From the NCBI GenBank assembly GCA_030550775.1, contig JAUQOS010000015.1:1-35568 (forward strand): a stretch of 35,568 nt of DNA. The letters are read 5' to 3'. The notes below the pieces were generated by a model, which saw only the letters and a list, made by a program, of their open reading frames with translations, searched no databases and was not told the DNA's origin. This document shows, piece after piece, positions 5,875 through 12,556 of the stretch. The DNA is from Armatimonadota bacterium (GTDB lineage: Bacteria; Armatimonadota; Fimbriimonadia; Fimbriimonadales; GBS-DC). The translations under genes and the position numbers were made by a program. Numbering within the stretch: position 1 is the stretch's first letter; each line of letters begins with the position of its first letter.

Positions 5875-6643
5875 ATGGTGGCTGTGGCTGGACGGGCTGC
5901 TGCTGTTGCTGACCGTCTACTACTACCTGCCCGACCTTACTGGCGAGTCGCGCGAACGGTTGCTCAGCCCTGATTACTGGCGCGCTCGCTGGCGTAGCGA
6001 GCACCTTATAACCCCCGCGGGCGTGCTGTGGCGTGGCGACCCCCATCAGCCTGTTGTGGCACTCACCTTCGACGATGGACCCGACCCCAACACCACCCCC
6101 CGCATTTTGGAAATCTTGCGCCAAGAGGGTGTTCGGGCGACTTTTTTCGTGGTGGGCACCAAACTCAAGCGTTATCCTGAGTTAGCCAGGCAAATCGCTC
6201 AAGAAGGGCACGCGATCGGCTGCCATGGCTACGACCACCAACGCCTGACACAGCTCACCGAGGCGCAGGTGTGGCGACAGATACGCGACTGCAAGGTGTT
6301 GGCAAAGCGGGCAGGAGTCGAGCTGGTGGCATTACGCCCGCCCTATTTGGCATTAAATGAGGCGGTATCTCGTGCAGCTCAGCGCCACCGAATGCCTGTG
6401 GTAATGGCAACTGTTTTGGGCGAACCAGAAAGCTTGGCGCACTCCAGACAATGGGCGTGGCGGTATGCCCGCCGTGCGCGCAACGGTAGCATTCTGCTGC
6501 TGCATGACACCTATCCGCACACGGTGGAGGCTCTGCCCGAGTTGATTCGCGCCTTGCGCTGGCGGGGCTATGAGTTCGTCACGATTCCTGAGATGATTCA
6601 ACGGTTACAGCAGGCGGGGCTTGCGCCTGGAGAAGCGAAATGA
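5861..6643 (+). CDS. Polysaccharide deacetylase (NodB homology domain), membrane-anchored
   Basis: 260 residues from the ATG at 5861, which overlaps the GT9 stop; GAGG lies 9 nt upstream. A basic n-region and a hydrophobic segment (about residues 6-24) form an uncleaved anchor or signal. The NodB domain follows with motif 1 TFDDGPDP (D71, D72), the metal-binding H122-x3-H126 (CHGYDH), RPPY (R159) and the late LLLHD. These are the metal site and catalytic residues of CE4 enzymes that remove N-acetyl groups from peptidoglycan, chitin-like or exopolysaccharide chains. The substrate is not deducible. The 3' end overlaps the convergent ABC ATPase gene by 65 bp. Confidence 0.88.
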   Translation: MVRRKWWLWLDGLLLLLTVYYYLPDLTGESRERLLSPDYWRARWRSEHLITPAGVLWRGDPHQPVVALTFDDGPDPNTTPRILEILRQEGVRATFFVVGTKLKRYPELARQIAQEGHAIGCHGYDHQRLTQLTEAQVWRQIRDCKVLAKRAGVELVALRPPYLALNEAVSRAAQRHRMPVVMATVLGEPESLAHSRQWAWRYARRARNGSILLLHDTYPHTVEALPELIRALRWRGYEFVTIPEMIQRLQQAGLAPGEAK

Positions 6644-7868
6644 GCGCGCTTAGGCTGTTAGCAGTACGCATGCCGTTGTCAAGCAAAGCGCTCCACAGTT
6701 GGGTGGCAGCCCCTTGTGTGAAGTCGCGTTTTTCGATGGGTATTGTGGCGAGGGCATAGACGGGCTTGCCTTGTGTTTGTGCCCACGCTGCCAGCTCTAA
6801 GTTGCGCAAGTTGCCCCATCCAAACGGCGTTTCGGCAATCACGAGGGCGTCGGCGGTTTGGGCGAGCTGTTGGGCACGCTGATAGGCGTCGTCGCCAATC
6901 GGTGAGAAAGGTTGCTCGGTGATGTGGGTCAGGCGCAGGGCGCGCGCTACTTCCTCGTCGGTATCCAGCAGGTTGAGCACGCCCGTGCTGATGCGCCAGC
7001 CTGCGGTCATCAGGGCGTAGTACACGACCGCACCCGCCCCACCTCCAGCAATCACGAAGGCATGCGGCGCGTCGGGGGCGGTAGTTGGCGTGCTGTTGGG
7101 GCTAAGCGCAAACACCAGCGGTTTGCCTGTAAGCGGATTGGTTTGGCAAAGCACAGGAGTCTGGTACACCTGCTCCAGCAGGGTTGGCTCCAGCACGGTC
7201 TCGGGCGCGCCTTGCGCCACTAGCCGTCCTCGATGCATCAGCGCAATCCAGTCGGCGTATTGGCTGGCTAAGTTCAGGTCGTGCAGCACCACCAGCACGC
7301 CCACGCCTTGCTGGCGCGCATGGTGCTGGAGCATGTGCATCAGCTGGGTTTGGTGGTGCAGGTCTAAGTGGGCGGTGGGTTCGTCTAACAGCAGGTAGCG
7401 TGCGTGCTGGGCAAGGGCGCGGGCGAGGTTCACGCGTTGGCGCTCGCCGCCGCTTAGCTGGCTGATTGTGCGCTGTGCCAAGTGGCTGATGCCTGCTTGC
7501 GCCATCGCGTGGTGCACCGCTTGCCAGTCGGCGCGGCTTGCGCTCCCGAAGCCCTTTTGGTGGGGGTAGCGCCCCATCATCACCAGCTCAGCGACGGTAA
7601 AGCCCATCTCGGCAGGGGTCTCTTGGGAGGCATATGCCACCAAACGGGCGAACTCCGTGGGGCTATATGCCTCGTAAGGGTGTTGCTCCAGCCAGCGCGC
7701 GCCCGCAAAGGGCTGTAGCGTGCGGGCTAAGGTACGCAAGAAAGTGGTCTTGCCCGAACCGTTGGGTCCCAGAAGCGCCACTACTTGCCCCGGGGGCACT
7801 TCCAGCGTGACATCGTGCACCATCGGGGTGTGGTTGTAGCCTGCTACAATCGCTTCCGCACGCAACAT
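6579..7868 (-). CDS. ABC transporter ATPase (BtuD/FepC/HmuV type) with extra C-terminal domain
   Basis: 429 residues. Residues 1-255 are a complete ATPase: Walker A GPNGSGKT (34-41), Q82, signature LSGGE (138-142), Walker B LLLDEP (D162/E163), H-loop H196. The VMMGRYPH segment after the Q-loop is typical of importers for cobalamin, heme or ferric siderophores. A Pro/Thr linker leads to a second region (about 268-413) beginning FVIAGGGAGAVVYYAL. It has an alternating beta/alpha look and contains TDEEVARAL and TPFGWGNLRNLELA. I recall similar extensions on other cobalamin-type ATPases but cannot name a function. No permease or binding-protein gene is present, so partners must lie elsewhere. The gene starts 3 bp after the SAM hydrolase stop and is probably cotranscribed with it. 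Confidence 0.88.
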   Translation of the reverse strand: MLRAEAIVAGYNHTPMVHDVTLEVPPGQVVALLGPNGSGKTTFLRTLARTLQPFAGARWLEQHPYEAYSPTEFARLVAYASQETPAEMGFTVAELVMMGRYPHQKGFGSASRADWQAVHHAMAQAGISHLAQRTISQLSGGERQRVNLARALAQHARYLLLDEPTAHLDLHHQTQLMHMLQHHARQQGVGVLVVLHDLNLASQYADWIALMHRGRLVAQGAPETVLEPTLLEQVYQTPVLCQTNPLTGKPLVFALSPNSTPTTAPDAPHAFVIAGGGAGAVVYYALMTAGWRISTGVLNLLDTDEEVARALRLTHITEQPFSPIGDDAYQRAQQLAQTADALVIAETPFGWGNLRNLELAAWAQTQGKPVYALATIPIEKRDFTQGAATQLWSALLDNGMRTANSLSALISLLQAQAPPAVTVESSQES

Positions 7869-7871
7869 CGC

Positions 7872-8675
7872 TTATAAGGGCACACGCACAGTGGTTTCGA
7901 AATCTACACCCAGCTGGCGCGCTGCCGAACCGCCGTTGATAGCCACTTCCAAGTAGTCGCTGCTGCCCCAATACGCCAGCGGCGTGCCCCACGGCACCTC
8001 GCCGAAGGTGCGCACCATTGGCAACTCCACCAGTGTGCCCGCGCGGCTAAGGTACACGCGGTCGGGGGCGGAGCGTTGCGTGGCGCGCGCATACACGGCC
8101 CGCCGCAGGTTGAACACCACATTGCCGAAATGGTCTATGTGCAGCGGGTGGCATACGAAACCCTCTGCCTCGCGGATGGGGGTTAGGTGAGGTAGTTGCG
8201 TCAGCGTGTCGGGGGGCGTGGGGGTGCCCAGCTGCTCCAGTGGCACGCCGTTTGCAAAATGCGCGGCACAGGGGGCAAAAATGTCGCGCCCGTGAAAAGT
8301 CGCACTCACCTCGGGCAGGTGATAGCGAGGGTTGTCTAAAACGACGGCGCGTTGGGGCGGGTCTTCCAGCAGGGCGAGGCTGAGTAAGCCGTTGTCGGGA
8401 GCGAAGTAGATGTGGCGTGTGCCTTGCACGCCAATCGCGCGGCGGGCTGTGCCCACGCCAGGGTCAACCACCGCGATAAGGACCGTGCCGTCGGGCAGAT
8501 AAGGCACCGCGGTCGCCAACTGGTACGCGCCGCTGCGCACCTGCTGCGGCGGAATGCCGTGCGTAAGGTCTAACACCTCACAGGTGGGGCACAGGCGCAG
8601 CAGCACTGCTTTCACCTGGGCTACATAGGTGTCGGTATAGCCGTAGTCGGTCAGCAGCGCAATCAGCCGAGCCAT
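7872..8675 (-). CDS. S-adenosylmethionine hydrolase (DUF62, SAM hydroxide adenosyltransferase)
   Basis: 267 residues. The family splits SAM to adenosine and methionine and is homologous to fluorinases/chlorinases. The N-terminus reads LLTDYGYTDTYV; the water-activating triad is visible as D71 and R78 (VVDPGVGTARR) with H128 (TFHGRDIFAP). This corresponds to the Asp-Arg-His triad described for the hydrolases rather than the halogenases. The C-terminal beta domain carries IDHFGNVVFN. The ATG start at 8675 lies 7 nt after a TATCCT box and has no ribosome-binding site. It is the first gene of a two-gene unit with the ABC ATPase. In many bacteria genes of this family sit near cobalamin/ECF-type transport or other SAM-linked genes; the physiological role remains unclear. 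Confidence 0.9.
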   Translation of the reverse strand: MARLIALLTDYGYTDTYVAQVKAVLLRLCPTCEVLDLTHGIPPQQVRSGAYQLATAVPYLPDGTVLIAVVDPGVGTARRAIGVQGTRHIYFAPDNGLLSLALLEDPPQRAVVLDNPRYHLPEVSATFHGRDIFAPCAAHFANGVPLEQLGTPTPPDTLTQLPHLTPIREAEGFVCHPLHIDHFGNVVFNLRRAVYARATQRSAPDRVYLSRAGTLVELPMVRTFGEVPWGTPLAYWGSSDYLEVAINGGSAARQLGVDFETTVRVPL

Positions 8676-11690: not shown

Positions 11691-12530
11691 TTAGTCCCAC
11701 TTCTCCCACAAGTCGGGGCGTTGGGTGCGCGTATACTCCAGCGTGGAGCAGTAGGTGCCGTTGTCGCGGTCGCACTCGGTTTCAGGCAAGCCATACAGCG
11801 CCTCAAATGGCGTGGCTTTGGTATGCCCGTCCGCAAAGGTTACCACCACCTGTTTCTGGTGGCGTCCGTGCGGGCGCTGGTGGAACGCTGGACGACCGGG
11901 CTGCACGCTAAAACCGTAATGCTGCCACTCAGGGCGCATAAAAGGCGAGTGCACCACATTCATATAAAACCCGTTGTTCTCCCACAGCGGCCGACTGGAG
12001 GTGCCCGACGGCACGGCATCCATGACCATCACATGGTTTGCGGGCGCGCTCAGCTGTGCCAGCGAGCGACTGGGAGGATACACATTCGGCGGGAACTGAC
12101 ATCCAGCTGAAAAGCCCATCGGCGAAGGATACGCAGCACCATACCCGATGCGCCCCTCACACAACAACCGACGCCCTGTAGGGCTGTCAGGCACGCTAAT
12201 CGGCTTGGCAGAGGGACAACGGGAATAAAGATTGTCTTTGGAATACGGCTGCAACCAGTACAAATAACCGATGGAAGTGCACGAAGTGTAGCCACCGCCA
12301 CAGAAGTTGGGGGGCGGTATCAACTGGTTTTCGGCTAAGGGGAACACCTCATCGTAGTCTTGCACATACATCATCGCGGCGATGCCGATTTGCTTGTTCT
12401 GGCTCAAACACTGCGTTTGACGTGCCTTCTCACGCGCTTGCGCAAACACGGGGAATAGAATCGCGGCAAGGATGGCGATGATCGCGATTACCACCAGCAG
12501 CTCAATTAGCGTAAATCCGCGCCGTTGCAT
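11691..12530 (-). CDS. DUF1559 prepilin-type protein with H-x9-DG motif
   Basis: 279 residues from the ATG at 12530 ([12 protein letters not shown]). I prefer this start because GGAGG lies 9 nt upstream; a nearer ATG at 12536 leaves too little space. The N-terminus is a type IV prepilin signal: basic RR, cleavage after G, then [13 protein letters not shown] and a hydrophobic helix to about residue 28. QAREKARQ and [11 protein letters not shown] are typical of Armatimonadota/Planctomycetes DUF1559 proteins. Near residue 220-235 is H-x9-DG (TFADGHTK). Such proteins are probably exported pilin- or pseudopilin-like surface proteins processed by a prepilin peptidase; their job is unknown. A second, headless copy lies at 101-745. 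Confidence 0.9.
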
Positions 12531-12550
12531 AACCATATACCTCCAAGTCA

Positions 12551-12556
12551 ATTGTA
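12551..12556 (-). promoter_or_regulatory. -10 box TACAAT for the DUF1559 gene
   Basis: On the minus strand GGTACAAT lies 20 nt upstream of the ATG at 12530, with GGAGG between. The -35 region is not recognisable. Confidence 0.4.

Follow-up and report, generated by a model that had tools for sequence, protein, structure and literature searches.

A BtuD-like ATPase with a conserved C-terminal Rossmann-like domain in Armatimonadota: a possible part of corrinoid import

Introduction

The BtuCD-F system of Escherichia coli is a type II ATP-binding cassette (ABC) importer with a FecCD permease and a PF01497 binding protein, and, to our knowledge, its ATPase BtuD carries no C-terminal domain of the kind considered here. 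The present analysis concerns an open reading frame (ORF) of 429 amino acids (aa), located at 6579..7868 on the minus strand of a 35,568-nucleotide stretch of Armatimonadota DNA (assembly GCA_030550775.1, contig JAUQOS010000015.1, positions 1 to 35,568), the whole of which is hereafter called the window. This ORF encodes a BtuD-like ABC ATPase extended by a C-terminal domain (CTD).

Substrate-sensing C-terminal domains occur on the ATPases of MetNI and ModBC, in which they slow the import of methionine and molybdate when the ligand is plentiful. The likeness to the window ATPase lies in the position of the domain on an importer ATPase; however, the MetNI and ModBC domains have other folds and belong to type I importers. 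We know of no receiving or sensing domain described on any type II importer, and no publication on a corrinoid-receiving or corrinoid-sensing domain of such importers was found by title or abstract start. The family model PRK09536 / NF007082 (corrinoid BtuD), which we take to be modelled on haloarchaeal proteins, covers the same ABC family, and even the CTD alone aligns to it, but the window ATPase scores below its cut-off, is bacterial, and its gene is not beside btuC. With respect to structure, the best VIA-align match of the window CTD is the molybdenum cofactor (Moco) carrier protein of Rippkaea orientalis (6y01), although the sequence similarity is not significant and other Rossmann folds nearly tie with it. 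This carrier is a stand-alone homotetramer that binds Moco (PMC7470044).

The gene family of the ORF, the conservation of its CTD, the corrinoid context of several CTD-bearing relatives, and the Rossmann-like fold that models give for the CTD are established below. On this basis, we lean towards considering the ORF as the BtuD of a type II corrinoid importer, with a cytosolic ligand-binding CTD and with no relation to the S-adenosylmethionine (SAM) hydrolase encoded next to it.

The ATPase Family and Its Corrinoid Context

The window is contig C129 of a 2.43-Mb assembly (G000) comprising 152 contigs and 96.67% complete (G, C, L and f designate our genomes, contigs, loci and families). The ATPase ORF is whole, with its stop codon, and passes Pfam ABC_tran PF00005 (3.7e-32, 112.2 bits against a cut-off of 25), and its nucleotide-binding domain (NBD), residues 1-255 (7104..7868, minus strand), displays the motifs GPNGSGKTT, LSGGERQR, LLLDEPT, and HDLN. 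The best NCBIfam match of the whole protein was the corrinoid ABC transporter ATPase PRK09536 (2.6e-84, 283.7 bits), and the CTD scanned alone matched positions 265-348 of this 402-position model at 8.2e-9, followed by shikimate dehydrogenase at 4.0e-5.

The gene context of CTD-bearing relatives points to corrinoids. The archaeal context comprises two loci: in the L060 cluster, btuF, btuC, and then the CTD-bearing ATPase gene are placed between a cobQ-type gene (PF07685) and a 5,6-dimethylbenzimidazole (DMB) phosphoribosyltransferase gene (PF02277), both assignments being confirmed with Pfam, and L061 presents the order btuF-btuC-ATPase. Among 20 distant Armatimonadota loci, four have a btuC or btuF homologue next to the CTD-bearing ATPase gene: L123 and L135 harbor the order btuF-btuC-ATPase, while in L128 and L129 a cobalamin riboswitch (94.3 and 92.8 bits) comes first, followed by btuF-ATPase, an arrangement repeated in G207 (L220). 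Considering the whole phylum, a FecCD gene directly adjoins the CTD-bearing gene, by coordinates, in at least seven of the 103 genomes that carry the domain (G217, G218, G219, G099, G100, G195, and G198). Moreover, a PduO-type adenosyltransferase (PF01923) was found in 36 of 41 relatives, and once in the window's genome, indicating that B12 is used by these bacteria. It is due to this context, in which btu operons, a cobalamin cluster, and riboswitches are considered, that a corrinoid is preferred to haem as the substrate. The earlier note on this DNA had imagined a transporter ATPase with a regulatory domain, naming cobalamin among the ligands, and a SAM hydrolase that could supply or remove a related ligand; the context of the relatives supports a transporter ATPase with an additional, probably ligand-binding domain, and the hydrolase is dealt with below. 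The possibility that the CTD replaces an adenosyltransferase was rejected, since PF01923 is present in those 36 relatives, many CTD carriers included.

In the window's genome, the importer parts are found apart from each other. It had been remarked earlier that no permease or binding protein was linked to the ATPase, which holds for the window, where neither FecCD nor PF01497 was found; the genome-wide search for permeases revealed, however, one FecCD gene, on contig C54 (G000:C54) and thus away from the window. The gene order at that locus is ABC ATPase-FtsX-FecCD-biotin carboxylase, and we read the ATPase beside FtsX as FtsE. Two PF01497 genes are located on contigs C112 and C44, and the ATPase gene, on C129, is linked neither to btuC nor to btuF here, whereas it is linked to them in some relatives. 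BtuF, BtuC, and BtuD are therefore regarded as scattered in this lineage, given that the sole FecCD permease is on another contig, which is also what distinguishes the genome from the E. coli arrangement of the same components. Against PRK09536, the window ATPase scored 284 bits and the other ATPases of the genome at most half as much (142 bits), and the window ATPase most likely drives the only FecCD permease; no FecCD gene was found within the 5 kb read beside the runner-up, on C133.

The mechanism that we propose for such a system would begin with BtuF, or another surface protein, handing a corrinoid such as vitamin B12 to BtuC, and the passage of the corrinoid would be powered by the two NBDs of BtuD. 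The cytosolic CTD may then bind the imported corrinoid, perhaps by its nucleotide loop, or a nucleotide, at the place where the substrate exits the channel. In this way, the CTD could slow the transporter when the ligand is plentiful, or keep the corrinoid until the next enzyme takes it over.

Distribution and Conservation of the C-Terminal Domain

The CTD corresponds approximately to residues 268-416 (6621..7067, minus strand), as delimited by an AlphaFold2 model and by profile matches in the phylum. The claim that the ATPase ends in about 150 additional residues with VIAGGGAGA and TPFGWGNLRNLELA proved right, this part being real and conserved across genomes. A search of 291 genomes of the phylum with a profile of 17 CTDs (E <= 1e-5) recovered the domain in 103 of them, and nearly all the open frames listed had the length of a full ATPase. 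Of the named organisms at 13 loci that carry a related CTD, most were Fimbriimonadales or Armatimonadetes, and a search of plasmids gave no CTD match. In an alignment of 31 diverse sequences, G27, D39, D41, G87, N90, and D119 (numbered from ATPase residue 264) were invariant, and the motifs were common to bacteria and an archaeon. These motifs are conserved glycines behind strand 1, a D-x-D behind strand 2, PFGxGN, and RDFTxG, all in or near loops after strands. In the window protein, the last two are represented by PFGWGNLRNL, residues 348-357 (6798..6827, minus strand), found in the alignments, including profile alignments to Moco-carrier-like proteins, and by RDFTQG, residues 381-386 (6711..6728, minus strand), placed just ahead of helix 143-153 of the model.

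Some relatives lack the domain. Their nearest NBD match was found in ORFs of 251-311 aa, except for G038, in which the match lay in an open frame of 507 aa and was followed by 17 residues. Nine apparently CTD-less sequences were inspected: eight of them continued for 4 to 38 residues past the NBD match, and the ninth (L201) displayed the start of a CTD at a contig end and was left out of the count. These eight comprised six in family f3, L199 in f2, and L202 in f5; further f3 genomes and G021 (f5) presented short frames only, where the weaker matches may not be orthologues. In an NBD tree inferred with FastTree, which is rough, these eight sequences were found in three separate places among CTD-bearing ones, with the six of f3 together and L202 and L199 each apart. 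This distribution is therefore read as repeated loss, and suggests that the CTD was lost three times and is dispensable.

Fold and Sequence Relationships of the Domain

AlphaFold2 models were made for the CTD alone. The window domain was modelled with a mean predicted local distance difference test (pLDDT) score of 85.5 and alternating strands and helices, the archaeal one (L060) with 87.6, and both are Rossmann-like. For the window CTD, Foldseek placed DprA chains as the top Protein Data Bank (PDB) matches (5.1e-5), followed by dehydrogenases, while VIA-align gave 6y01 first (Z 12.1, root-mean-square deviation 4.1, 136 residues aligned, 16% identity), nearly tied with an NAD-dependent dehydrogenase (11.5) and MurG (11.0); LOG, DNPH1, and Moco carriers were among the best structural matches. 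With the archaeal CTD, first place went to a TIR domain (12.0), and 6y01 reached 11.7. The structure prediction called for in the earlier note thus gave a Rossmann-like domain near Moco carriers, LOG, and DprA, although other Rossmann folds are nearly as close.

Sequence comparisons were less specific. The window CTD matched no Pfam family over its cut-off, PF03641 (SLOG/LOG) reaching 11.8 bits against a cut-off of 27. The CTD of L044 (family f5) passed PF03807, F420_oxidored (23.0 against 21.6 bits), which we take as general Rossmann similarity. Profile searches of the PDB gave no significant SLOG match (DprA at E 0.13), and with a wider alignment topoisomerase I fragments (0.016) ranked above DprA (0.67), none being significant. 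With hhalign, the comparison of the CTD with a mixed set of LOG and Moco-carrier-like proteins gave 20 to 47%, at best 47%, and that with the Moco-carrier-like set alone gave 0.1 to 0.8%. In a single-sequence test against 446 proteins, the highest value for a Moco-carrier-like protein was 20%, compared with 5.7% for the highest unrelated protein among the best 80 of the 446; the two best raw scores tied (26.8 and 26.7), the 14 sequences of the Moco-carrier-like kind are closely related to each other, and two of the three LOG proteins ranked 128th and 182nd. Moco-carrier-like proteins of the same genomes aligned to the CTD at PFGxGNL..GKPV, in weak agreement with the structural matches. Since other folds nearly tie, the domain is called Rossmann-like in its models, perhaps SLOG- or Moco-carrier-like, and no more. 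No Pfam family of its own was found, PRK09536 covering part of it, and no publication on the domain was found in a search that left most subscription journals aside.

A stand-alone protein of SLOG cluster 4 (Moco-carrier-like), with a PF18306 match of 2.3e-43, is also encoded in the window's genome (L145:1408-1893, on G000:C21), and 13 further genomes from the family harbor relatives of it.

In the LOG proteins, the phosphate of the nucleotide is bound by the motif PGGxGTxxE, whose Glu is one of the two residues active in catalysis (PMC5379747). The window CTD does not have this motif but PFGxGNLxN at the corresponding place, both Thr and Glu being replaced by Asn. We infer that the CTD may be a cytosolic ligand-binding domain. 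Because the catalytic Glu of LOG is Asn in the CTD, a binding function, regulatory or as a carrier, appears more likely than a LOG-type catalysis.

The Neighboring SAM Hydrolase

The gene at 7872..8675 (minus strand, 267 aa) encodes a SAM hydrolase (SAM hydroxide adenosyltransferase), which passes Pfam SAM_HAT_N PF01887 (1.2e-52, 178 bits) and SAM_HAT_C PF20257 (3.2e-20, 72.7 bits) and remains below the NCBIfam equivalog cut-offs (best 255.9 against 350). As described in the earlier note, this gene and that of the ATPase are on the same strand with 3 bp between them, and both families are supported by Pfam. A functional coupling between them had also been suggested, for which random association in related genomes had been named beforehand as refutation, and it is such an association that the counts revealed. 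Among 41 related genomes, the fused ATPase (E <= 1e-60) was found in 21, the SAM hydrolase in 13, and both in 12; they were adjacent, judged within a 1.5-kb flank, in two of these 12, the window's genome and G004, which belong to one genus (the G004 locus, L029, matches L049). In G010, a single contig, the two genes are about 1.36 Mb apart, and nine of the 21 genomes with the fused ATPase have no SAM hydrolase match. The coupling was rejected because of this low adjacency: the SAM hydrolase gene is an unrelated neighbor, judged outside the module, and the pairing looks like a local accident.

On its other side, the ATPase ORF is convergent with a polysaccharide deacetylase ORF on the plus strand, their 3′ ends overlapping by 65 bp (6579-6643).

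Cobalamin Riboswitches and Pilin-Like Genes

The search of the window's genome yielded a single cobalamin riboswitch (G000:C122:14508-14674, 87.4 bits), behind which a gene for a 257-aa pilin-like protein (PF07963 plus PF07596/DUF1559) is placed (region L207:1509-2583). The frequency of this arrangement was determined at 82 sites (L128, L129, L207, and L211-L290) among the riboswitch matches listed, by a regular expression for the prepilin N-terminus applied to the same strand within 700 nt. The first 42 sites comprised ten of the twelve same-genus entries (G008 and G011, at contig ends, were left out) and upper entries of the list, some skipped, as well as sites chosen for their neighborhood, either a CTD-bearing ATPase (L128, L129, and L220) or FecCD (L248, L249, and L250); the other 40 were further entries of the same list, leaving out weaker riboswitches, including the ones in f3 and in other genera of f1. 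The prepilin motif was found at 29 of the 42 and 29 of the 40 sites, 58 of 82 altogether, and two sites counted as misses (G009 and G203) have less than 700 nt of sequence left. On the opposite strand, the motif was found at none of the 42 and none of the 40; it occurred in 8 of 4000 random 700-nt stretches, drawn from loci fetched for other reasons rather than from whole genomes, and in 2 of 638 background ORFs.

At 18 of the 58 motif-bearing sites (8 and 10 in the two sets), a btuF homologue comes next, in several cases with an ABC ATPase gene behind it, and G205, G206, and G207 share an arrangement in which the riboswitch is followed by the pilin-like gene, then btuF, then the CTD-bearing ATPase. 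Four riboswitch-linked proteins were scanned with Pfam, PF07963 being found in all four and PF07596 in three. Of the 24 sites that lack the motif, some are followed by genes read as TonB-receptor-like (G222, G225, G047, and G066), and others precede btuF with no pilin gene (G188, G264, G260, and G261). A pilin-like protein thus seems to be under B12 control in this phylum, and the gene order makes it a candidate surface component of corrinoid uptake. No publication linking "cobalamin riboswitch" with "DUF1559" was found in a search outside of which most subscription journals lie, and the DUF1559 literature that was found concerned, by its titles, Planctomycetes.

Other genes were observed around these riboswitches. 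Adenosyltransferase-like genes are placed behind some of them, by reading (G221 and G225), and the loci with TonB-receptor-like or adenosyltransferase-like genes are L236, L246, L280, L285, and L286. Behind the pilin-like gene of several loci (L222:1306-2829, L226, L229, L256, L276, and L287), a secreted-looking protein is encoded, of about 450-510 aa where measured, and the one scanned with Pfam gave no match. The window itself contains a second DUF1559 pilin-like gene (11691-12551, minus strand), upstream of a glycine cleavage T-protein gene.

Discussion

Several results weigh against the proposal that the window ATPase is a BtuD whose CTD serves a corrinoid. Besides the near ties and non-significant matches in the comparisons of the domain, the ATPase fails the curated cut-off of PRK09536 (283.7 against 537 bits), which was passed in none of 14 control genomes, and at 16 of the 20 distant loci the search for btuC and btuF homologues next to the ATPase gene found none at the limits used. 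In the window's genome, the weaker ATPase on C133 (142 bits) is a possible alternative partner of the permease, and both PF01497 proteins (L082:1414-2169 and L208:2629-3513) have no obvious signal peptide, by eye, their domain starting at residues 6 and 3, against residue 60 in the riboswitch-linked BtuF of L128. The only cobalamin riboswitch found in this genome is away from the window, in which an Rfam scan detected tRNA only and no riboswitch at the gathering score. Finally, the ATPase narrowly passes the haem ATPase model PRK13548 (267.7 against 261), which would agree with an importer of another FecCD-type substrate, such as haem or an iron-siderophore, to which the CTD would be devoted. 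This explanation is rather improbable, since cobalamin riboswitches and cob genes adjoin CTD-bearing relatives and the adenosyltransferase of 36 of the 41 relatives speaks for the use of B12.

With respect to the CTD itself, it could have an enzymatic activity on the corrinoid brought in, for instance at the lower nucleotide loop, in analogy to the LOG-type ribohydrolases. The Rossmann-like fold, the presence of LOG, DNPH1, and Moco carriers among its best matches, and the invariance of D39, D41, N90, and D119 in the 31 sequences would fit such an activity; however, the replacement of the catalytic Glu of PGGxGTxxE by Asn and the absence of the CTD in clades that keep the rest of the ATPase make it unlikely, if still the most plausible of the alternatives. 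These absences, seen in several related genomes of f2, f3, and f5, would also be expected of a folded but functionally neutral relic, an explanation to which we give little credit, as the motifs are kept from bacteria to an archaeon over those diverse sequences. Least probable of all is that the SAM hydrolase and the fused ATPase constitute one module in SAM, adenosine, or methionine handling: the 3-bp spacing on one strand and the adjacency kept in a second species (G004) are countered by its restriction to two of the 12 genomes with both genes, by the nine ATPase-bearing genomes with no SAM hydrolase match, and by the cobalamin genes that adjoin the ATPase relatives in some genomes instead.

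A corrinoid importer with a ligand-binding BtuD may be part of a wider system. We tentatively propose, as a picture that is possible and still doubtful as a whole, that corrinoid uptake in Armatimonadota proceeds from a riboswitch-controlled pilin-like protein, often of the DUF1559 family, to BtuF and BtuC and to a BtuD endowed with a Moco-carrier-like receiving or sensing domain, and that such a system was not described before. Should the CTD bind the corrinoid that is imported, a type II importer would possess a receiving or sensing domain, and the intracellular hand-over of B12 would become directly testable. The pilin and riboswitch result may matter more than the finding of the CTD: the placement of a pilin-like gene first behind many cobalamin riboswitches suggests that DUF1559, a family of unknown function, takes part in vitamin uptake, a role that this family would gain if the proposal is true.

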